DNA of 64,000 bases from a virus. The notes under the pieces were generated by a model. It was given only the letters and a program-made list of their open reading frames with translations. It had not been told where the DNA came from and searched no databases. Below, in pieces: positions 27,231 through 63,690 of this stretch. The stretch lies in the IMG/VR virus record IMGVR_UViG_3300032242_001192, positions 1 through 64,000 of that record. One strand, 5' to 3'. The translations under genes were made by a program, and so were the position numbers. The stretch's first letter is position 1. Every line of letters begins with the position of its first letter.

Positions 27231-27238
27231 TATAAATA
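27231..27238 (+). promoter_or_regulatory. T4-type late promoter before gene 18
   Basis: Exact TATAAATA octamer, the complete -10 element used by T4-type gp55 sigma, in the 70-base gap between genes 17 and 18 and 52 bases before the sheath ATG. The gap also has an AAGGAG ribosome site just before the ATG. A gp55 gene is present in this window, which makes use of the octamer plausible. Confidence 0.75.
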
Positions 27239-51807: not shown

Positions 51808-52849
51808 TACTCATTTTGGAGCAAGATCCGATTCTCAAGCGTTTGATTTATATTTTAAAAAATTCTATGATGAAGTATTTTTTCCAGAATTAGACAAGCG
51901 CAAAATACAGCAAATTATTCATTTGGGTGATTGCTTTGATAGACGAAAATATATTAACTTTAATACATTAAGTACATGTAAACAGTACTTCTTTGAAGAA
52001 GCAGTCAATCGTGGTATTGATATGGATATGATTATTGGTAACCACGATACATTCTATAAAAATACTAATGATATAAATTCTCCAACTTTATTGTTGGGAG
52101 AATATCCTAATCTTACTTGCTATAGTAAACCAACAATCGTAGAATATGATGGACTAAAGATTCTTTTACAGCCATGGATATGCGCCGACAACTATGAGGA
52201 TTCAATTAAACTAATTGAAAGCAAAGTGGCAAAGGTTTGTTTTGGACACTTAGAATTGTCTGGGTTTATTATGTTCAAGGGACAAGAAGCTCAAATAGAA
52301 CATGGTGGTTTAGATCCTTCGTTGTTTAAAGATTTTAAATTAGTATGTTCTGGACATTTCCATCACAAGCATGGCAGAGGCAATGTTGAGTATATAGGCA
52401 ATCCCTATCAGTTATTCTGGAACGATTTTGAGGATGATCGAGGATTCCATATCTTTGATACTAAAACACTACAGTTAGAATTTATTAGAAATCCAAATAC
52501 TATATTTGAGAAATATTATTACGACGATGAAAAAGAAGATCCTATGTCTATTGACATTACTAGATTCGCATCCAAAGTAATTAAATTGATTGTAGTAAAT
52601 AAAAAAGATTTTATTAAGTTTGATAAATTTATAGAAGCAATCTATAAACAAACTCCAATCGAATTAAAAATCATTGAAGATTTTTCTGAATTTGAATCTG
52701 AAGCAATAGACGAATCTGTCGACTTAGAGGACACGATGACACTATTATCTAATTATGTTGATAGTGTAGAAACAGATGCAGATAAAGATAGATTAAAAAG
52801 TTTGCTAAAAGCATTATATGTCGAAGCACAACATTATGAGGAAGTATGA
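51785..52849 (+). CDS. 47: Recombination nuclease subunit gp47 (SbcD/Mre11-like)
   Basis: A 354-residue metallophosphoesterase. Phosphoesterase motifs are visible: VTDTHFG (Asp8/His10), IIHLGDCFDRR (~44-54), IIGNHD (~78-83) and CSGHFHHKHG (~190-199) with GNPYQLFW. Gp47 with gp46 forms the Mre11/Rad50-type complex needed for recombination-dependent replication and DNA end resection. Length equals T4 gp47 (339) within limits. Its stop overlaps the 46 start (ATGA). Confidence 0.95.
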   Translation: MKIALVTDTHFGARSDSQAFDLYFKKFYDEVFFPELDKRKIQQIIHLGDCFDRRKYINFNTLSTCKQYFFEEAVNRGIDMDMIIGNHDTFYKNTNDINSPTLLLGEYPNLTCYSKPTIVEYDGLKILLQPWICADNYEDSIKLIESKVAKVCFGHLELSGFIMFKGQEAQIEHGGLDPSLFKDFKLVCSGHFHHKHGRGNVEYIGNPYQLFWNDFEDDRGFHIFDTKTLQLEFIRNPNTIFEKYYYDDEKEDPMSIDITRFASKVIKLIVVNKKDFIKFDKFIEAIYKQTPIELKIIEDFSEFESEAIDESVDLEDTMTLLSNYVDSVETDADKDRLKSLLKALYVEAQHYEEV

Positions 52850-54561
52850 TAAGATTTCACGCAGTTAGATGGAAAAATTTTTTATCGACAGGTGGACAAT
52901 TTACGGAAGTCAAATTAGATAAAGCAACAACTACACTTATTGTGGGTGAGAATGGTGCAGGCAAGAGTACTATTCTAGATGCTATTTGTTTCTGTTTGTT
53001 TAATAAACCTTTTAGGAATATTAATAAGCCTCAGTTGATGAATAGTATCAACGGTAAAGGCTTACAAGTTGAGATTGAATTTAGTATAGGTCCTAAAGAA
53101 TACAAAGTTGTTAGGGGTAGCAGACCTGGTATTTTTGAAATCTATGTCAACGGAGATCTGTTAAATCAAGATGCCGCATCTAAAGATTATCAAAAATATC
53201 TTGAAGACAACATTCTAAAGTTAAACTATAAATCTTTTACTCAAATCGTTATCCTGGGTAGCGCATCCTTTACTCCTTTTATGCAATTACCGCAAGGACA
53301 TAGAAGAGAAATTATTGAGGATATTTTAGACATTCAAATCTTTACAGTAATGAATTCTGTATTAAAAGATAAGAATGCAGAAATTAAAAATCAAATTACA
53401 AACATTGATACTCAAATTGAAATCGGTAAAAATAAAGTTAAAATGCAACAGCAGTACATAGCTACGCTGGAGAATGATAAACAGAAGAAAGTTGAAGATG
53501 TACAAAAGCGAATACTTGAAACGTCTGCAGAAATATCACAACTTAATGCAAGTGTCACTGCAGAAAAAGATGCCGAGAATACTCTTAAATCCTCGATATC
53601 GGATGCGAAGGAAAAACGCAACAAACGAACGGAAATGGGATCTTTGCTTAGAAAACTTTCCGAACGCGTTACTGCGCAAGAGGGGCATATTCACTTCTAT
53701 CACGACCACGATGTTTGTCCGACTTGTAGTCAGAATCTTGATGAAGAAGTCAAAAAGGATGCAATACAATCTCACACGCTCAAGGTCGGAGAGATTACCA
53801 AGGCTATCGAGGAACTCAACAATCAACTTATCGATATTGAAACAAGACTTGCAGAGATTGATTCTATTGAAGAGAAAATATCTGAACATCAAAGCAATAT
53901 CATTGCCCTCAACACAAGCATTATCGCAAACCAAAACTACGTACAAAAATTACAAGACGATATATCTAGTTCCACATCATCATCGGGCGATATTGAAGGG
54001 GAAAAGGCTAAGCTCAAAGCTCTTGCTAAAGAAGTCGTCGCTCATGCAGATCAAAAAAGCAAAGCCTCGGAGGAAAAACATTATTTAGATATTGCTAGTA
54101 TTTTATTAAAAGATACAGGTATTAAGACAAAGATTATTCGTCAATACTTACCTGTCATTAATAAATTAGTAAATAAGTATCTTGTGGCAATGGATTTCTT
54201 TTGTCATTTTGAATTGGATGAGGCATTTAATGAGAAAATTAAATCTAGACACAGAGACGAATTTTCGTATGCCTCATTTAGTGAAGGTGAAAAACAGCGC
54301 ATAGATTTGGCGTTAGTATTTACTTGGAGAACAATCGCAAAGATGAAGAATTGTGCTAGCACAAACCTTTTGTTACTTGATGAGGTTTTTGATTCTTCTT
54401 TAGATGTCAATGGTACAGATTATGTAATGAACCTTATAAATACTTTAGGAGATGAGACTAATGTATTTGTTATTAGTCACAAAGGAGATCTTCTCTTTGA
54501 CAAATTTAGAAGTGTCATAAAGTTTGAGAAGCATCAAAATTTTTCAAGAATATCAGTATAG
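52846..54561 (+). CDS. 46: Recombination nuclease subunit gp46 (SbcC/Rad50-like)
   Basis: A 571-residue SMC-like ATPase. Walker A is IVGENGAGKST (residues 32-42), the zinc hook CPTC at about 291-294 in the centre of two antiparallel coiled coils, signature motif FSEGEKQRIDLAL near 478-490, and Walker B LLLLDEVFDSSLD near 507-519. It pairs with gp47. Length agrees with T4 gp46 (560). Codons around the hook (about 53560-53960) use more C-ending codons than nearby sequence, a minor local oddity. Confidence 0.95.
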   Translation: MIRFHAVRWKNFLSTGGQFTEVKLDKATTTLIVGENGAGKSTILDAICFCLFNKPFRNINKPQLMNSINGKGLQVEIEFSIGPKEYKVVRGSRPGIFEIYVNGDLLNQDAASKDYQKYLEDNILKLNYKSFTQIVILGSASFTPFMQLPQGHRREIIEDILDIQIFTVMNSVLKDKNAEIKNQITNIDTQIEIGKNKVKMQQQYIATLENDKQKKVEDVQKRILETSAEISQLNASVTAEKDAENTLKSSISDAKEKRNKRTEMGSLLRKLSERVTAQEGHIHFYHDHDVCPTCSQNLDEEVKKDAIQSHTLKVGEITKAIEELNNQLIDIETRLAEIDSIEEKISEHQSNIIALNTSIIANQNYVQKLQDDISSSTSSSGDIEGEKAKLKALAKEVVAHADQKSKASEEKHYLDIASILLKDTGIKTKIIRQYLPVINKLVNKYLVAMDFFCHFELDEAFNEKIKSRHRDEFSYASFSEGEKQRIDLALVFTWRTIAKMKNCASTNLLLLDEVFDSSLDVNGTDYVMNLINTLGDETNVFVISHKGDLLFDKFRSVIKFEKHQNFSRISV

Positions 54562-54569
54562 GAATTATT

Positions 54570-55160
54570 ATGAATAAATGGGAATTACAAGTACATCAGG
54601 TCAACGCATATTGCTACTACGAGAATATATTTGACGATGATATGATTAACGGCATTATAGAAGCAGGCGAAAAGCTTGGCACAGATAAAGCATATGTTGG
54701 TGGGGATTTACAAACACCTGGAAGGGTAGCTGAAGAAATCCGAAAAACGGATATTGCTTGGTTAAATGGAACTCAAGAAAATGCTTGGATTTTTAGAAAA
54801 CTAACAGATGTAATTTTACAAGCAAACGCACAATGGTTTGGATTTGATCTTAATACTATCGAAGCTCTTCAGTATTCTGTTTATAATGTAGGTGATTTTT
54901 ATGATTCGCATGTAGATCATCACTTTCAAGGTGCAGGTCAATATCCAAGAAAACTAAGTTTTACTATGCAACTAACTGATCCTAGTGAATATGAAGGTGG
55001 TAATACTAGATTAATCACATCTCAAGAACCTTTCGATATTCCAAAGACAAAAGGATCCATTACTTTCTTCCCTTCATATACATTACATGATGTACAACCA
55101 GTAACTAAAGGTACTCGCAAAGCATTAGTAGGTTGGATATTAGGACCACGTTGGAAATAA
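54570..55160 (+). CDS. 2-oxoglutarate/Fe(II) dioxygenase (prolyl-4-hydroxylase-like)
   Basis: A 196-residue 2OG oxygenase. The iron ligands are in YDSHVDHHF (His114, Asp116) and TLHDVQPVTKGTRKALVGW (His173, with Arg183 as 2-oxoglutarate anchor). The layout follows PKHD/P4H-type enzymes found often in cyanophage and pelagiphage genomes. Substrate unknown; oxidation of protein, nucleobase or small molecule is possible. A preceding GGAATTATT ribosome-like site sits nine bases after gp46. Confidence 0.85.
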   Translation: MNKWELQVHQVNAYCYYENIFDDDMINGIIEAGEKLGTDKAYVGGDLQTPGRVAEEIRKTDIAWLNGTQENAWIFRKLTDVILQANAQWFGFDLNTIEALQYSVYNVGDFYDSHVDHHFQGAGQYPRKLSFTMQLTDPSEYEGGNTRLITSQEPFDIPKTKGSITFFPSYTLHDVQPVTKGTRKALVGWILGPRWK

Positions 55161-55161
55161 A

Positions 55162-55437
55162 ATGGCTACAAAGATTCCGTTAGAGTATTTAGATTTAGAT
55201 AACGATTTCGGTTTCAACGCTGTACATGAAACAGACGTTACAGAACCTTTAGTCAATCAAGTAAATCAAAATGCGGATATCAAAATAAAACAACAATTAG
55301 CTTCTGTTGAAAAATTGATTTTGCCCCTTTTGGTTAACTTGATGAAGAATCCTGAGAAGGATTACATACATTGGCCGAATAGAGTACCGGCGATTGAGAA
55401 ACAGATTGAACGCATACTGGCGATAACCCGTAGTTAA
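55162..55437 (+). CDS. Small conserved phage protein
   Basis: A 91-residue mostly helical protein with the pattern LVNLMKNPEKDYIHWPNRVP then AIEKQIERILAITRS (residues ~58-91), which I recognise as recurrent in T4-like marine phages (xPxKxYIxWPNR). Function unknown. It starts one base after the dioxygenase stop and is the last gene of that transcription unit before a strong promoter. Confidence 0.65.
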   Translation: MATKIPLEYLDLDNDFGFNAVHETDVTEPLVNQVNQNADIKIKQQLASVEKLILPLLVNLMKNPEKDYIHWPNRVPAIEKQIERILAITRS

Positions 55438-55452
55438 TGGCTTACTGAGGGC

Positions 55453-55481
55453 TTGACTTCTTGTACTAAAGGTGTTATAAT
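55453..55481 (+). promoter_or_regulatory. Strong sigma70 promoter before the VWA gene
   Basis: TTGACT and TATAAT with an exact 17-base spacer, plus an extended -10 (TGTTATAAT). The -10 neighbourhood AAAGGTGTTATAAT is identical to that of the promoter before the downstream AAA+ gene. A GTACAAAGGAG ribosome region follows before the ATG at 55506. Confidence 0.9.
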
Positions 55482-55505
55482 TAAGGCTAGTACAAAGGAG
55501 TCTCG

Positions 55506-57764
55506 ATGTTAGTTCAATCAAAATCTCTTCTAGCAAAATTGCTTGCCGCAGAAAACATCACTGTCGAGCATCGCAAAACACAAACAGCATATTTCGATCC
55601 TAAGAATAGAGTCATGGTTCTTCCTATATGGAAAGAAATGACTCCTGATGTCTATGACTTACTACTTGGTCATGAGACAGGACATGCTTTATTCACACCT
55701 TCCGAGGGTTGGCATAATGCAATTATATCCTCACAAAGCAGAGCGTTCAAAACATTCTTAAATGTTATCGAAGACGTACGCATTGAAAAGAAGGTTCAAG
55801 AAAAATTCCCAGGCCTTAAAGCATGTTTCACACGAGGTTATAATGACTTCATGAAGAGGGATTTCTTTGGCATTGAAAATATTGCAAGTCAACTAGATAT
55901 ACTACCATTTATTGATCGTATCAATCTTCACTATAAAGTTGGCTCTTATTTAAATATCAAATTCTCAGATAAAGAACAAGTTTATCTAAAGCGTTTAGAC
56001 AATCTTAAGAAATGGGAAGATGTAGAAAAGCTTGCTCGAGAATTATTTGCTATGGCAAAAGATGATCTTAGACAACAGCTTATGGATCAGTTTGCTAACT
56101 ATGAGGAGGGCGAAGGCGATCCCGACGAACAAGAGTTTGATTACGACGGCGAGTTCGAAGAAGATGCAGATGAGTTTGGTACAAAGCGCAAGGCGCGCTC
56201 ATTCTTCGGAGGCAGTAATAGAATTGCAGAAGATGAACCTTATTCTAGAACAGATGATTATTTCCGTAGAAAAGAAACAGAACTTTTAGCTGACGACGTA
56301 AAACCATATTATTATGCGAATTTGCCTTTAGCTAATTTGAAACAGATCATTGTTCCTTATAAGAATATGAAATTGCATTATAATGATTTTGCATATTACG
56401 ATCCTTCACTGGGAATGAAAAAAGATGTATCTGAGGATCCTAAATTACTAGGATATGTAGAGTCTGCTAAGAACAAATACTACAAGGAATTCACAGATAC
56501 AAATAAAAAGTATATCTCATATCTTGTCAAAGAGTTTGAGTTGCGTCGTAATGCTAGACAATTTGCTCGAGCAAGTATTGCTAAAACAGGTGCACTTGAT
56601 GTTAAGAAAATTTATTCTTATAAAATCAACGATGACTTGTTCAAACGAATCTCAGTAGTTCCTAACGGAAAATCTCATGGACTAGTTATGTTCATTGATT
56701 ACTCTGGGTCTATGACAGAAAATATTGATGCAACAATTGAACAAACTATTGTATTAGCGACATTCTGTAAAAAGGTAAATATTCCATTCCGAGTATATGC
56801 ATTCACAGATGATTTTCTTTCACCTGAAGATTTAATGTCCGAATTGAGTATTACTGATGCAGAAGGGTATCGTAGATATTTTGAATCGAATCACAATGGT
56901 AGAAAATCTGTATACAATAAATTCTCAAGTGAAAATGGTGAGCTTGATCTAAATGGGTCCAAGGCTTTTAGATTGCGAGAATATCTTTCTAGTGAGATGT
57001 CTGGAACAGAATTCAGAGAAGGAGTTAAGTTTTGGTTATTGGCAGGCAAACTGCATAATGCACGAAGCTGGAGCAGACGCACAGATACGATGAATATAAA
57101 TGAGCCTATGACATGTATTCGAAATACTAGATTTGAATCGTTGAATGGTACACCTTTGAATGAAGCAATTGTTGCTAGTGTTGAGATTGTAAAACAATTT
57201 AGAAAACAATATCGGTTAGATGTAGTTAATACTGTGTTCTTAACTGATGGTGATGCTAATGAAAACAATTCAATATATAGTGAAACTGCTTCATCGGGTT
57301 CTGAATATTTCCAAAGGTACAATAGTACTGATAGAAATCTAGTTATTAGAAACTTACGAGATGGTACTCAGGCAGTAGCACCACCTAGAACAGCATTGAC
57401 ACAAGGTCTCTTATCTTTACTAAAAGAAACTACAGGTTCTAATGTTATTGGATTCTTTATAACAGGTGGCTACAGTATCAAGGGTACTATCAGGGGTAAG
57501 ATGGCAAAGCATGGTCTAGATTCAACTTTAGACATTGACAATATAATGAAAAGTTTTAGAAAGAACAAATTCGTCATGCTAAATGATGTTGGATATGATG
57601 ATTTTTATATCATACCTGGAGGTAAGGATCTTGTAATTGAAGAGGATAAGCTTGAGGTTGAGGGAACCTCTAAAAACGATTTCAAGAAAGCCTTTATGAA
57701 AATGCAAAAGGGCAAGGTCACGAACCGCGTGCTTTTGAGTAGATTTGTCGAGAAAATTGCTTGA
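55506..57764 (+). CDS. HExxH metallopeptidase-motif / VWA (CobT-like) protein
   Basis: A 752-residue protein. Residues 1-110 hold a gluzincin-like motif: HETGH (56-60) with VIEDVRIEKK (87-96), the NxxEDxRxE type seen in CobT-like and related proteins. After an acidic, low-complexity linker (~200-230) and a middle helical domain, a von Willebrand A domain begins near 390; its MIDAS is FIDYSGSMTEN (Asp398, Ser400, Ser402) with a later TDGDANEN (~583). It is paired with the AAA+ gene immediately downstream, the usual arrangement of MoxR-VWA (CobS/CobT) remodelling systems. Whether the HETGH is proteolytically active is unknown. It has its own promoter. Confidence 0.78.
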   Translation: MLVQSKSLLAKLLAAENITVEHRKTQTAYFDPKNRVMVLPIWKEMTPDVYDLLLGHETGHALFTPSEGWHNAIISSQSRAFKTFLNVIEDVRIEKKVQEKFPGLKACFTRGYNDFMKRDFFGIENIASQLDILPFIDRINLHYKVGSYLNIKFSDKEQVYLKRLDNLKKWEDVEKLARELFAMAKDDLRQQLMDQFANYEEGEGDPDEQEFDYDGEFEEDADEFGTKRKARSFFGGSNRIAEDEPYSRTDDYFRRKETELLADDVKPYYYANLPLANLKQIIVPYKNMKLHYNDFAYYDPSLGMKKDVSEDPKLLGYVESAKNKYYKEFTDTNKKYISYLVKEFELRRNARQFARASIAKTGALDVKKIYSYKINDDLFKRISVVPNGKSHGLVMFIDYSGSMTENIDATIEQTIVLATFCKKVNIPFRVYAFTDDFLSPEDLMSELSITDAEGYRRYFESNHNGRKSVYNKFSSENGELDLNGSKAFRLREYLSSEMSGTEFREGVKFWLLAGKLHNARSWSRRTDTMNINEPMTCIRNTRFESLNGTPLNEAIVASVEIVKQFRKQYRLDVVNTVFLTDGDANENNSIYSETASSGSEYFQRYNSTDRNLVIRNLRDGTQAVAPPRTALTQGLLSLLKETTGSNVIGFFITGGYSIKGTIRGKMAKHGLDSTLDIDNIMKSFRKNKFVMLNDVGYDDFYIIPGGKDLVIEEDKLEVEGTSKNDFKKAFMKMQKGKVTNRVLLSRFVEKIA

Positions 57765-57789
57765 CAAGAAGCATAAAAGGTGTTATAAT
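57761..57789 (+). promoter_or_regulatory. Consensus sigma70 promoter before the AAA+ gene
   Basis: TTGACA and TATAAT, both perfect, with a 17-base spacer and an extended -10 (TGTTATAAT); the -35 overlaps the stop of the VWA gene. The shared AAAGGTGTTATAAT with the preceding promoter suggests co-regulated, strong early expression of both genes. The ATG follows 37 bases after the -10. Confidence 0.93.
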
Positions 57790-57825
57790 ATAGTATGAAT
57801 TGTTTGAAACCACAGGAGTTATATT

Positions 57826-59004
57826 ATGTCTAAATCGCACTTCACCGAAGATCAGCGCAAAGAATTGATTACTACATTGATTACGCAATATGGTAATCGA
57901 GTATCTAAAGATGCTATTATTGATTTTTGTTCGAAGCAGAATTTGCCGAATCCTCATTTCCTGATCTCTCGGCGTGACATCAAGGCAGGAAAAGATTATA
58001 TGTTAGATCTATTTTATGAAAAAGGTGAAGAAATGAAACGTGAAGATACTCCAGTAAATGCACCAGCATTGCAAGCACAAGTAATGCAGTTTAAACCAAA
58101 ACGTGTAGCAGTAGAAGCAGATAGTACTATTCCTCAAAAGGATAATACTTATGTTCCGTTTGGATTCTTTAGACAGTTAGAACAGATTATCAAATCGCAG
58201 ACATTCTATCCAGTCTTTATTACTGGCCTATCAGGCAATGGCAAGACTACTATGGTAGAACAAGTTGCAGCTAAACTTAAGCGTGAGTGTATTCGAGTTA
58301 ATATTAGTATTGAAACAGATGAAGATGATCTAATCGGTGGTAATACTTTGCATGACGGTAACGTAATTTATCGTGAGGGTCCTGTTCTTATGGCAATGCG
58401 TCGAGGTGCAGTACTTCTAATTGACGAAATTGATCGTGGATCTAATAAATTGATGTGCCTACAAAGTATTCTAGAAGGCAAGCCATTCTTTAATAAGAAA
58501 ACAGGTGAGATGGTCTATCCTGAAAAAGGATTCACAATTATCGCAACTGCTAATACTAAAGGTCGTGGTACTGAGGATGGTCGTTTTATTGCAGCACAGA
58601 TTTTGGATGAGGCATTCTTAGAGCGCTTCCCTATTACAGTTGAACAAGAGTATCCTAGCGCTGCTGTTGAAAAGAAAATTGTAAACAATAAAATGGAATT
58701 CTATGGTCGTGTAGATACCGACTTTGCAGAGAAGCTTGTTAACTGGGCAGAGATTATTCGTAAGACATTTGTAGAAGGTGGCGTAGACGAGATTGTCAGT
58801 ACACGTCGTTTGGTAAATATCGTACAGGCATATTCAATCTTCGAAGATCGTGAGGAAGCAATTAAGTATTGTATTAATCGATTTGATGACGATACAAAGA
58901 CAGCATTTATGGATTTGTATTCTAAAATGAATGCTCCTGTAGAACAAGCAGTTAAGGCAAATCCTGATAGCGAAAGCAATCTAGATGATGAGGTTCCATT
59001 CTAA
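57826..59004 (+). CDS. MoxR/CobS-type AAA+ ATPase
   Basis: A 392-residue AAA+ ATPase. Walker A is GLSGNGKTT (134-142), Walker B VLLIDEIDRG (about 196-205), a sensor 1-type stretch IIATANTKGRG (~242-252), and an arginine-rich sensor/finger region DEAFLERFP. TDEDDLIGG (~162-172) and the LIGG/REGP insert match MoxR/CobS. CobS-type genes are frequent in cyanophages, where they were labelled cobaltochelatase, but the neighbouring VWA partner here supports a general chaperone-like remodelling role. The N-terminal ~60 residues (HFTEDQRKELITTLITQYGN) are an additional helical domain. Confidence 0.85.
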   Translation: MSKSHFTEDQRKELITTLITQYGNRVSKDAIIDFCSKQNLPNPHFLISRRDIKAGKDYMLDLFYEKGEEMKREDTPVNAPALQAQVMQFKPKRVAVEADSTIPQKDNTYVPFGFFRQLEQIIKSQTFYPVFITGLSGNGKTTMVEQVAAKLKRECIRVNISIETDEDDLIGGNTLHDGNVIYREGPVLMAMRRGAVLLIDEIDRGSNKLMCLQSILEGKPFFNKKTGEMVYPEKGFTIIATANTKGRGTEDGRFIAAQILDEAFLERFPITVEQEYPSAAVEKKIVNNKMEFYGRVDTDFAEKLVNWAEIIRKTFVEGGVDEIVSTRRLVNIVQAYSIFEDREEAIKYCINRFDDDTKTAFMDLYSKMNAPVEQAVKANPDSESNLDDEVPF

Positions 59005-59053: not shown

Positions 59054-59884
59054 ATGCACACTAATGAAATAGTCCATGACACCTTTATTCCTAGATGGTT
59101 CGGTAGGCTAGGAAATAACATACAACAAATATCTAATGCCATTTACTTTTGTAGAAATAATAGCATTAATTTTTCCTCACCTGAGAGCGTTTATCTTAAT
59201 GAAATTAATGAACAGTTTGGTCCAAGTACATATAAAATAAAAGAAGATTCTAATAATTGGTTTTACTTTTTTAATGGACCGGATGCAGATTTTACTGTCG
59301 ATATAGATGATCTAAATAGAAAAAGAAAAGAAATATGTTTAGAATACATTCTACCTGCTCTAAAAATTAACCATGAAGAATTGAACACTCCTGTAGAAGA
59401 ATTAGTTATTCATATTCGAAGCGGTGATCTATATACTAGATGGCCTGCAACACATACACAAAATCCGCTAGCATATTATCTACATTTATATCTAACCCAT
59501 AATGGCAAGGTTATATTTGTAGCTGAGGATGATAACAATCCAATCGTTTATTTTCTAAGCAAAATGCCAAGCGTAGACATTCGATTATTGAATGAGATGG
59601 ATAGTTACACTTTATTATTACGAGCAAAAAATTTAGCAACATCTGGTGCAGGTTCTTTTGCAATATCTGCAGCTTTCTGTTCGCCTAATTTAGAAAATTT
59701 ATACTGTACAGATTTATACTTGGAAAATAGTTTGAATCCGACTATGTTAAAAGAGCAACTTAATGTTCTTATGGCGGATGTCTCAGGCAATAAATATTTT
59801 AAAGTAGGTGAGTGGAATACTGCGCAACACGACATTAATAAGATCTTGAAATACGAAGATCATATATCATTTAGGAGACTATAG
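59054..59884 (+). CDS. Fucosyltransferase-like glycosyltransferase (GT11-type)
   Basis: A 276-residue protein. [15 protein letters not shown] (residues ~16-30) matches the G-x-LGN-x(2)-Q N-terminal motif of GT11, and [14 protein letters not shown] (117-130) contains the H-x-R-(R/S)-G-D GDP-fucose-binding motif of alpha-1,2/alpha-1,6-fucosyltransferases. The C-terminal half is less conserved. The neighbouring gmd and fcl genes make GDP-fucose-type donors, which supports the call. It starts 11 bases after the hairpin, without a clear ribosome site. Confidence 0.72.
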
Positions 59885-59885
59885 C

Positions 59886-60899
59886 ATGGCAAACAAAGTT
59901 GCTCTAATTACGGGCATTACTGGGCAAGACGGTTCTTATCTTGCAGAATTACTATTAGAAAAAGGTTATGAGGTTCATGGAATTGTTCGTCGCAGTTCTT
60001 CTATGAACACAAGCCGTATTAATCATATCTATAGTAATCCAAATCTTCATCTTCACTATGGTGACGTAACAGATTCTTTATCTATTATGAATGTATTGAA
60101 GAAACATAATCCTAGCGAGATCTATAATCTGGCAGCACAAAGTCATGTGAAGGTTTCTTTTGAAACTCCTGAGTATACAGCAATGGTTGATGGCTTAGGT
60201 ACATTAAAGATTTTAGAGTCAGTTAGATTATTAGGAATGGAAAAAACAACTAAGATCTATCAAGCATCTACATCTGAACTATATGGTTTAGTTCAGGAAA
60301 TCCCACAAAGAGAAACAACTCCGTTCTATCCTAGATCACCATATGGTGTTGCTAAGTTATATGCATACTGGATTGTTAAGAATTATCGAGAATCATATAA
60401 TATGTTCTGTTGTTCAGGTATTCTATTTAATCACGAATCTCCCCGCAGAGGTTTCAACTTCGTTACTAAGAAGATTGTAAATGGATTAGAAGCGGTTAGT
60501 TCTGGTCGTCAAGAATGTTTGACATTAGGTAATCTAACAGCATTAAGAGATTGGGGACATGCTAAAGATTATGTCGAAGCAATGTGGTTAATGTTACAAC
60601 AGGATACTCCCGATGACTATGTTATTGCTACAGGTGAGCAATATACAGTTAAACAATTCGTAGAACATTGTGCTCCATATTTCGCATTGAAGATTCGCTG
60701 GGAAGGTGAAGGCTTAAATGAAGTAGGTATTGATGTTAACACTAATAGAGTTGTAGTAAGAGTTGATCCTAAATACTTCCGACCCGCAGAAGTTCAAACC
60801 TTATTGGGAGATTCTACAAAAGCTAGAAGTGTCCTCGGTTGGCAACCTAAACATTCTTTCGACGACTTGGTCGAAGATATGTGCATAAACTTTGAATAA
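59886..60899 (+). CDS. gmd: GDP-mannose 4,6-dehydratase
   Basis: A 337-residue SDR producing GDP-4-keto-6-deoxy-D-mannose. [20 protein letters not shown] (7-26), [14 protein letters not shown] (~33-46), [20 protein letters not shown] and [15 protein letters not shown] (catalytic Tyr/Lys) with FNHESPRRG are specific to Gmd. Length fits bacterial enzymes (~345-370). The product is the common precursor for GDP-fucose, colitose and perosamine, and the next genes suggest which is made. It begins one base after the fucosyltransferase-like gene. Confidence 0.95.
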
Positions 60900-60900
60900 T

Positions 60901-61590
60901 ATGCAAGGCAATAGTGTAAAGGTTCAGGGGATAGGAGGGTTTCCTCCATCCATGAATGATGTAAACAGAATTGTCACTGAGAAATATTTAAACTATGATA
61001 ATGGTTTCTTTATTGAAGTAGGTGGTGCAGATGGTTACACTCAAAGTAATACTTGGTACTTAGAAAAATATAAAAATTGGACAGGTATTTTAGTTGAACC
61101 TAATACAGAATCTGCTATAGTTTGTCGCAATAATAGAGAAAACTCTTTAGTATATAATTATGCTTTAGTTAGTGAGGATTTTGAGGAAGACGAAATTAAA
61201 ATGATGCGGCGTGTTGTATACAACGGCGACCCAGGTTTGATGACTTCTACCGCAGATTCTCCAATTCGTCAAGTATCGGATTGGATCAATCCTATAACAG
61301 ATTCAGATATCACTGAAGAATTTACAGTACAGACAGCAACACTAAATAGTATTCTTGAAGCACAGGATGTTAAGACAATAGATTTCTTTTCACTTGATGT
61401 TGAGGGATATGAATTAGAAGTACTCAAAGGATTAGATCTAAAAAGATTTTGTCCTAAAGTTATATTGATAGAATGGCATCTTGATATAGAAGATGTTAAA
61501 AAGTTACTAGATGAAACACACGAATTCAAAGAACAGTTATCTAAGCATGACTATGTTTTTATAGCAAGGGAACAAAATGGAAAAAAATAG
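60901..61590 (+). CDS. FkbM-type SAM-dependent methyltransferase
   Basis: A 229-residue enzyme. FFIEVGGADGYTQSNTWYLE (about 37-56) is the SAM-binding region, GILVEPNTES (~65-74) the acidic loop, and DFFSLDVEGYELEVLKGLDL (~165-184) the hallmark of the FkbM family, which methylates sugar hydroxyls or related groups. I start at the ATG two bases after the gmd stop; a TTG nine bases upstream lies within gmd. Context in a sugar cluster points to O-methylation of a glycan. Overlaps fcl by 14 bases. Confidence 0.85.
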   Translation: MQGNSVKVQGIGGFPPSMNDVNRIVTEKYLNYDNGFFIEVGGADGYTQSNTWYLEKYKNWTGILVEPNTESAIVCRNNRENSLVYNYALVSEDFEEDEIKMMRRVVYNGDPGLMTSTADSPIRQVSDWINPITDSDITEEFTVQTATLNSILEAQDVKTIDFFSLDVEGYELEVLKGLDLKRFCPKVILIEWHLDIEDVKKLLDETHEFKEQLSKHDYVFIAREQNGKK

Positions 61591-62512
61591 TAAGATATTT
61601 GTAGCAGGACATAATGGATTAGTAGGTTCTGCTATTGTAAGAAAGTTAAATGAAGAAGGTTACACTAATCTTATTTTAAGATCAAAAGCGGAATTAGATC
61701 TTAGAGACCAAAGAGCAGTGAAAAATTTCTTTAGTACAGAACTTCCTGAATATGTATTTTTGTGTGCTGCCAAAGTAGGTGGCATTAATTGGAACTGGAC
61801 AAATCCTGGTGAGTTTATTTACGATAACTTACAGATTCAAACGAATGTTATAGATGCAGCTTATAGAAATGGTGCTAAGAAATTATTGTTCTTAGGTTCT
61901 GCTTGTATCTATCCAAAGGTTACCCCTCAACCTATCAAGGAAGAATATCTTCTTACTGCTCCACTTGAGCCGACGAACGAGGGGTATGCATTAGCAAAAA
62001 TTACTGGTCTACGTATGTGCGAATACTACAGACGCCAGTATGGATTTAATGCCATTAGTTGTATGCCTGCAAACTTATATGGCATTAATGATAACTTTAT
62101 TCCTGAGCATGGTCATGTTATTCCCGGTATTATTACTAAGATGCATAATGCTATGAAGAACGGAGAAGATAGTATTGAATGTTGGGGCGATGGAACACCT
62201 ACAAGAGAATTCTTATACGTTGATGATCTTGCAGATGCTTGTTTTTGGTTGATGCAAAATTACGATGAAAAAGAATTTGTTAATGTAGGAAGCGACGAAG
62301 AACTTACTATCAAAGAACTAGTAAATAAACTCAAGAAAGAGTTTGGATTCAAAGGTAAGATTGTTTGGAATAAAGATAAACCAAATGGTACTCCAAGACG
62401 TAAAATGGATAATAGTAAATTAAAATCCCTTGGATGGAATGCTAAAGTTAATTTTGACGAAGGACTAAAGCGCACAATCGCTTGGTATAAAAAAGAAAAG
62501 GGATTATTATGA
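61577..62512 (+). CDS. fcl: GDP-L-fucose synthase-like epimerase/reductase
   Basis: A 311-residue SDR of the WcaG/Fcl type. Signature segments: VAGHNGLVGSAIVRKL (~8-23), CAAKVGGINWNWTNPGEFIY (~60-79), LGSACIYPKVTPQPIKEEYL (~106-125) and the active-site Tyr-Lys in YALAKITGLRMCEYYRRQYG. Fcl epimerises and reduces GDP-4-keto-6-deoxymannose to GDP-L-fucose. Because a ColD-like gene follows, this enzyme could also act like ColC (colitose). Length is normal (~315). Confidence 0.92.
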   Translation: MEKNSKIFVAGHNGLVGSAIVRKLNEEGYTNLILRSKAELDLRDQRAVKNFFSTELPEYVFLCAAKVGGINWNWTNPGEFIYDNLQIQTNVIDAAYRNGAKKLLFLGSACIYPKVTPQPIKEEYLLTAPLEPTNEGYALAKITGLRMCEYYRRQYGFNAISCMPANLYGINDNFIPEHGHVIPGIITKMHNAMKNGEDSIECWGDGTPTREFLYVDDLADACFWLMQNYDEKEFVNVGSDEELTIKELVNKLKKEFGFKGKIVWNKDKPNGTPRRKMDNSKLKSLGWNAKVNFDEGLKRTIAWYKKEKGLL

Positions 62513-63690
62513 GATGGCCTTTAATGGGTGAGACAATCACCTTTGGTGATAGACTTAAAATAGCTTACTTTGCTTTAACAGCAAAGAGATTTACTTTTGG
62601 CGAAAAGGTAAAACAATTTGAAGCCGAATGGAGCGATTGGGTTAATCCTAAATCATATGGAACATACTCATTATATGTGTCTTCAGGTAGTACAGCAAAT
62701 TTCCTATTGGTTGCTGCAGCAATCGAATTGTATGGATTAAGGAAAGGTGATAAAGTATTGTTGCCCGCTTGTACTTGGATGACTAATGTTGCCCCTATTA
62801 TTCAGCTAGGTCTTACTCCAGTATTCTGTGATGTAAATTTAAAGAACTTTAGTTTTGATTTAGATGAAGCGAAATTGCTAGCAAAGAAGCATAATATTAA
62901 AATGATATTTGTTACTCATCTATTAGGGTTCTCTGCTGATAATGAAGAATTGAGAAAGATTTTTCCTAAGGCAATTATTATAGATGACGTCTGTGAATCT
63001 CATGGATGTACTGATCCATTAGGTAATAAGCGTGGCGCTAACAGCACAGGTGCTACATTTAGTTTCTATTTTGGTCATCATATGTCTACGGTCGAAGGTG
63101 GTATGGTAACAACCAATGACAAAGATTTATATGATCTAATGAAGGTTAAACGTAGTCATGGTATGGCAAGAGAGTCTACTAGATTTGAAGACTATGCTCA
63201 ATTATATCCTGAGATTGATAAACAATTCTTATTTGTTACTGATGGATATAATTTTAGAAATCATGAGATTTGTGCGGTACTAGGTTCTTCTCAATTAAAA
63301 CGTTTGGATAAAATGATTGAGATTAGAAACAGAAATCATGATTTATTTACTAGTATCATTGACAAATATCCGCATCTATTTTATAATATAGACAATCCTG
63401 AAACGAACAGTAGTTTCAGCTTACCCTTCATTTGCAAGTCTAGAGAAATTATGCTAGCAATGAAAGAGACATTTGCTGAAAACGGTATTGAATATAGACC
63501 AGTTGTTGCAGGTAACTTATTATCACAGCCATTCTTAAAAGATTATGCGATTGATACACAAAAAGAAAGAACCAACGCTGATATTATTCAGAGTCAAGGT
63601 GTCTACATTGGAAACAATCATTTCGTAAACGATATAGATATGGAATTCTTAAAACAAGTAGTGGAGAAAATAGATGCCAAATTTAGGTAA
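62509..63690 (+). CDS. DegT-family enzyme with His-for-Lys: GDP-4-keto-6-deoxymannose 3-dehydratase (ColD-like)
   Basis: A 393-residue PLP enzyme. The fold signature includes YVSSGSTANFLLVAAAIELY (about 56-75), ACTWMTNVAPIIQLGLTPVF (~87-106) and IIIDDVCESHG (156-166, PLP-binding Asp). At the site that normally holds the PLP lysine the sequence reads FGHHMSTVEGG (His190, His191); a histidine here is the defining change of 3-dehydratases ColD and RfbH rather than aminotransferases. ColD acts on the Gmd product, made by the gene 1.6 kb upstream. Thus a 3,6-dideoxyhexose such as GDP-colitose may be made. Overlaps fcl by four bases. Confidence 0.8.
   Translation: MRWPLMGETITFGDRLKIAYFALTAKRFTFGEKVKQFEAEWSDWVNPKSYGTYSLYVSSGSTANFLLVAAAIELYGLRKGDKVLLPACTWMTNVAPIIQLGLTPVFCDVNLKNFSFDLDEAKLLAKKHNIKMIFVTHLLGFSADNEELRKIFPKAIIIDDVCESHGCTDPLGNKRGANSTGATFSFYFGHHMSTVEGGMVTTNDKDLYDLMKVKRSHGMARESTRFEDYAQLYPEIDKQFLFVTDGYNFRNHEICAVLGSSQLKRLDKMIEIRNRNHDLFTSIIDKYPHLFYNIDNPETNSSFSLPFICKSREIMLAMKETFAENGIEYRPVVAGNLLSQPFLKDYAIDTQKERTNADIIQSQGVYIGNNHFVNDIDMEFLKQVVEKIDAKFR

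Follow-up and report, generated by a model that had tools for sequence, protein, structure and literature searches.

Two adjacent genes between positions 55,453 and 59,004 of a T4-like virus (IMG/VR record IMGVR_UViG_3300032242_001192, of which the first 64,000 nucleotides, hereafter the window, were analyzed) encode a 752-residue protein that combines an HExxH motif with a VWA domain and a 392-residue MoxR/CobS-like AAA+ ATPase. The pair is probably an early-expressed AAA+/VWA remodelling machine of the NorQD/midasin kind with a zinc-peptidase head, and not a cobaltochelatase. Sequence and structure model reveal a strict association of the two genes, conservation of both the peptidase motif and the metal-ion-dependent adhesion site (MIDAS), a NorD/midasin-like fold of the VWA domain, a distinctive promoter pattern, and a position within the gp46-gp45 block; the two proteins are predicted to form a complex and to carry out proteolysis, on a target that would not belong to cobalt-corrin chemistry. 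The ATPase gene, cobS, belongs to the core genes of T4-like cyanophages; it serves as a community marker and is routinely counted among the vitamin B12 genes. This core gene of phages abundant in the sea has probably been misnamed: if the protein paired with it is a metallopeptidase-VWA protein and the two act on proteins early, the vitamin label would be wrong throughout an extensive literature.

The gene pair and its distribution

The window contains a phage major head protein gene and a scaffold gene, as well as homologues of uvsW, gp55, gp47 and gp46 before the pair (Table 1). The 752-residue protein matches the 'peptidase' family phrog_459 end to end (9e-181, residues 5-752), and the ATPase matches phrog_249, labelled 'porphyrin biosynthesis' (3e-116), as well as AAA_5 (6.8e-18) and CbbQ_C in Pfam. 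The larger protein has no usable match in Pfam or NCBIfam, and PDB sequence searches with it or its profile gave nothing convincing. Both open reading frames and all of the motifs named in a first-pass annotation of this DNA are present: HETGH (residues 56-60), NVIEDVRIE (86-94) and a full MIDAS (DYSGS at 398-402, T549, and TDG at 580-582) in the larger protein, and Walker A (GLSGNGKT at 134) and Walker B (LIDE at 198) in the ATPase. An AAA_5-type ATPase with both Walker motifs and a partner VWA domain with a DxSxS-T-D MIDAS identify the two as a MoxR AAA+/VWA pair.

Table 1. Features of the peptidase-VWA and ATPase genes in the window
Feature	Position	Strand	Evidence
Promoter of the peptidase-VWA gene, sigma-70-type, TTGACT-17 nt-TATAAT, extended -10	55453..55481	+	11/12 consensus
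Zincin-VWA protein, 752 residues ('peptidase' phrog_459, viral 'CobT')	55506..57764	+	Open reading frame; profile match; structure model with mean predicted local distance difference test (pLDDT) of 81.6
N-terminal HExxH metallopeptidase-like domain, residues 1-206	55506..56123	+	Invariant residues; fold matches mostly to HExxH proteins
C-terminal VWA domain with long helical extension, residues 268-752	56307..57761	+	MIDAS D398/S400/S402/T549/D581; structural matches to NorD and midasin
Promoter of the ATPase gene, sigma-70-type, TTGACA-17 nt-TATAAT, extended -10	57761..57789	+	12/12 consensus
MoxR/CobS-like AAA+ ATPase, 392 residues (phrog_249)	57826..59004	+	Pfam, PHROG, PDB, tree

The peptidase is present in 463 phage records, nearly all of them from cyanophages, and the ATPase, at a strict cut-off, in 460; in the three main organism-name groups the counts for the two genes are identical (365, 61 and 24). 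The pair occurs in almost every marine T4-like cyanophage and also in the phages DLP6 and Ochrobactrum phage OC. The genes of S-PM2, Syn9, P-HM2, S-SSM4 and S-CAM7 are arranged as gp47-gp46-peptidase-CobS-gp45, some of these phages having a few small genes inserted. The survey of co-occurrence in related phages proposed in the first-pass annotation found the peptidase gene upstream of the ATPase gene in 71 of the 79 environmental viral contigs seeded with the ATPase, the other eight ending within 0.9 kb upstream. The two family matches and the 463 phage records show that the pairing is not due to chance: these genes are a real, conserved and already catalogued pair, rather than a newly seen module.

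Almost all cellular matches to the peptidase profile lie on contigs of metagenome-assembled genomes assigned to a wide range of bacteria and to one archaeon; these are probably viral contigs binned with those organisms. The only isolate chromosome among them, that of Turicimonas muris, encodes a similar pair of an ATPase and an HExxH-VWA protein. Staphylococcus phages were rejected as carriers, the gene after their matching AAA ATPase encoding a DUF7192 protein with no recognisable VWA domain.

Peptidase site, fold and proposed mechanism

The HExxH motif is intact in 136 of 136 full-length relatives, all of which also keep the DxSxS of the MIDAS (some of the contigs overlap). Because scans seeded with the HExxH pattern are biased toward it, conservation was recounted on loci seeded with the ATPase, where the motif is present in all 54 full-length partner proteins from environmental viral contigs. 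Across 74 aligned sequences there is no variation at H56, E57, H60, N86, E89, D90, R92 or the residues of the MIDAS; HExxH followed by a downstream acidic residue (H56, E57, H60, E89) is the gluzincin-type arrangement, in which E89 would be the third metal ligand.

In the structure model, the VWA part with its extension is closest to the VWA domain of NorD (Z 15.7 over 240 residues, root-mean-square deviation 4.3) and also matches the MIDAS domain of midasin (Z 14.7); CobT structures are not among the best 50 matches listed in either full-model PDB search, which excludes nothing. The best PDB matches of the ATPase are midasin, CobS, CbbQ and NorQ. As VWA domains filled the fold search with the whole protein, the N-terminal domain was folded alone (pLDDT 90.2). 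Most of the top matches of this domain are HExxH proteins (ArdC, BlaR1, minigluzincins, M48, BepA, IrrE, ZMPSTE24, selecase and Wss1), the best being the anti-restriction protein ArdC, and since no Z score exceeds a modest 6.7, a zincin fold is likely rather than demonstrated.

In NorQD, a finger of the VWA protein lies in the pore of the ATPase, and the VWA domain turns when ATP is hydrolysed (PMC13036017). By analogy, the phage AAA+ protein would form a ring, with the helical extension of its partner sitting in the pore; the metal at the MIDAS may hold a target protein through one of its acidic residues; by turning or pulling the VWA domain, ATP hydrolysis would open the target; and the N-terminal HExxH domain would clip the opened protein.

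Relationship to cobaltochelatase

The CobS model (TIGR01650) is the best curated NCBIfam match of the ATPase (7e-25), but the score of 87.8 bits is below the curated cut-off of 558.55. CobT (TIGR01651) matches neither the 752-residue protein nor anything else in the viral record, which is 72,165 bases long and may be a fragment. CobN is likewise absent from the record, although a host CobN could serve; the earlier statement that no other cobalamin gene lies nearby thus stands for CobT and CobN, the two that were searched for. In a phylogenetic tree, the T4-like ATPases form a clade of their own (99/95) apart from that of cellular CobS (100/99), some branches being long and the branching order among groups unsettled.

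The partner proteins differ in the peptidase site itself. HExxH is absent from 12 of 12 cellular CobT proteins, in which the region reads CHDxxxH...VEQARVE, and is kept in all eight plasmid, integrative and conjugative element (ICE) or chromosomal relatives examined and in five of six other viral 'CobT' proteins. The CobT-like protein of Pseudomonas phage nickie (locus L010, 2358-4442) has lost the motif, which the related proteins of SSU5 and RHph_X66 retain. The first-pass description of a CobT-like protein with an added HETGH therefore holds as to the presence of the motif but not as to its being an addition, HExxH being usual in the phage and plasmid relatives. By profile comparison, the N-terminal domain matches the plasmid group at 98.8% and other viral proteins at 97.2%, versus 1.8% for cellular CobT. 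The full-length profile matches cellular CobT at 88.3% over 93 columns, so distant homology of the two families is likely, and the direction of change would be a loss of HExxH in the cellular CobT lineage.

Taken together, the CobS score, the lack of a CobT match, the separate clade and the HExxH motif suggest that the pair is probably not a cobaltochelatase, in agreement with the doubt about a cobalamin role voiced in the first-pass annotation. For the 752-residue protein, 'peptidase' appears to be the better label and CobT the worse, and the case made for this at the level of sequence is what the present analysis adds.

Promoters and timing

The two promoters in Table 1 are the only plus-strand sites in the window that match at least 10 of 12 consensus positions and have the TG of an extended -10 element; randomized sequence with matching dinucleotide composition contains no site at 11/12 with TG. 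Among relatives, the peptidase gene is preceded by a promoter matching 10/12 or better in 75 of 101 cases and the ATPase gene in 84 of 107, compared with 11/38 for gp46, 32/76 for gp45, 9/63 for gp44, 112/657 for other genes and 6/138 in shuffled sequences. In cyanomyoviruses, sigma-70-like motifs precede early genes and NATAAATA precedes late genes (review, PMC2984593). This T4-type late motif stands before the genes of the pair in about 4% of relatives. In the window, the late promoter TATAAATA occurs at 27231, 34336, 35575 and 36986, 23-52 bases before genes of the virion region (those after 34336 and 35575 encode the scaffold and the major head protein), and does not occur before the pair. 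No mention of these two genes was found in the cyanophage transcription literature searched.

Conserved sigma-70-like promoters and the near absence of late promoters make early, or at least non-late, expression of the pair a well-supported reading of the sequence, and the early action that the first-pass annotation had supposed from the strong promoters fits this pattern. Such timing weighs against a purely late role in assembly.

Genomic neighbourhood and alternative explanations

Of the informative contigs, 69 of 102 have gp46 upstream of the pair, and 84 of 105 have gp45 on its downstream side. In the window, SbcC/gp46 (52846-54561) is followed by a 2-oxoglutarate-Fe(II) oxygenase gene (54570-55160) and, directly before the pair, an open reading frame of 91 residues with no clear family (55162-55437). 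The genes after the pair (59054-63690) are of sugar-nucleotide or surface-glycan type (GDP-mannose dehydratase-like, FkbM-like, GDP-fucose synthase-like and DegT-like, assigned by reading only) where cyanophages have gp45-gp44, and profiles of gp45 and gp44 find no match within the window. A set consisting of an AAA_5 ATPase, a protein annotated on plasmids as DUF3150, and an HExxH-VWA protein recurs on conjugative plasmids and an SXT-like ICE (locus L194, 3414-7425; loci L196-L202). In five of the seven such loci examined, on MOBH plasmids and an SXT-like ICE, the ATPase/HExxH-VWA module adjoins bet or RecT and a lambda-type exonuclease gene, and in SSU5 and nickie the related genes are located between DNA ligase and DNA polymerase. 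With distant relatives often adjoining genes for recombination or replication on such unrelated elements as plasmids, ICEs and phage-plasmids, a DNA-associated protein complex is the most attractive guess for the target; the neighbourhood is suggestive of a DNA-linked target and of nothing further.

Several considerations weigh against an early-acting remodelling protease. Its activity and its complex are predictions; the modest zincin matches mean that the N-terminal domain could be a non-catalytic metal site; and early timing is read from promoter patterns. Most phages cluster the genes of the replication block for reasons of timing, which makes neighbourhood weak evidence for function.

A more specific form of the preferred explanation, a protease that remodels DNA-bound proteins, for instance by clearing them from DNA ends or the replisome, is possible though not likely. 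It accords with the flanking gp47-gp46 and gp45-gp44 genes in most relatives, with the recombination and replication genes beside the distant relatives on mobile elements, and with the presence of ArdC, the DNA-damage regulator IrrE/PprI and Wss1 among the fold neighbours. All of this is support from neighbourhood, however, the low fold scores do not separate these proteins from other peptidases, and the extra DUF3150 gene of the plasmid modules is not seen in phages. Similarly tentative is a broader view, in which a widespread mobile-element machine would use a MoxR motor to drive a zinc peptidase against DNA-bound proteins, in connection with the recombination and replication of T4-like phages, phage-plasmids and conjugative elements; CobST would then be its relative in cells, the peptidase site having been lost from CobT, and the cyanophage 'cobS' would be no vitamin gene.

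A chaperone for virion assembly, in which the motor and the VWA protein would help to assemble heads or tails while the peptidase trims structural proteins, seems improbable. A role of this kind has been proposed for the same domain architecture in jumbo phages, in a paper that also ascribes tail assembly in an archaeal virus to a MoxR-VWA pair (PMC7824862). Against it stand the promoters, since sigma-70-like sites dominate before both genes while TATAAATA marks the scaffold and capsid genes, and the location of the pair in the recombination/replication block and not among structural genes.

The first-pass annotation suggested that the pair may be a takeover or anti-defence machine, which goes beyond the evidence. 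A protease directed at an immune or metabolic complex of the host would suit promoters of the early type and the ArdC match of the peptidase domain; that match, however, has a Z score of only 6.7, no PADLOC model matched the peptidase, and the matches to the ATPase were weak and due to its generic AAA+ domain. Genes for anti-defence usually have a patchy distribution, whereas this pair occurs in nearly every cyanomyovirus and at a fixed position, and such a function is accordingly doubtful.

Least probable is the proposal that viral CobST joins host CobN and raises cobalamin output for nucleotide synthesis (PMC8651126), for although CobN exceeds the cut-off in 49 of 61 Synechococcus-family genomes and CobT is found in 0 of 81 (compared with 58 of 199 over the cut-off from the proteobacterial phylum), so that hosts with CobN but without CobT offer a vacancy for viral CobST, the ATPase score and clade, the retained HExxH and the N-terminal profile described above all argue otherwise.

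Comparison with known systems

The pair resembles the core block of T4-like cyanophages, made up of the 'peptidase' (T4-GC 146, phrog_459) and CobS (T4-GC 150, phrog_249), in families, order and place after gp46. Identity is only about 33% for the peptidase and about 50% for the ATPase over its full length, and the sugar-nucleotide-type genes downstream in the window contrast with gp45-gp44 in the cyanophage block. The module of SXT-like ICE and MOBH plasmids shares the AAA_5 ATPase and the HExxH-VWA protein, with the N-terminal profile match given above, but differs in having the extra DUF3150 gene, in placing the ATPase first, and in the type of element that carries it. NorQ-NorD, which acts in iron insertion into nitric oxide reductase, likewise consists of a MoxR ATPase and a VWA partner with a MIDAS and offers the closest VWA fold; HExxH goes unmentioned in the NorQ and NorD publications consulted for comparison.

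Two papers of 2021 disagree on pairs of this kind, one favouring a chaperone-protease of virion assembly (PMC7824862) and the other a cobaltochelatase helper (PMC8651126). In the former, group 2.2 jumbo phages have a MoxR AAA+ protein together with a VWA domain fused to an N-terminal metallopeptidase, a domain architecture and pairing that, by description only, are those of the window, and virion assembly is the role proposed. In the latter, the cyanophage pair is counted as cobST, hijacking of host CobN is proposed and 'peptidase' is called a mistaken label, whereas the motif found here is universal in the family and absent from cellular CobT.

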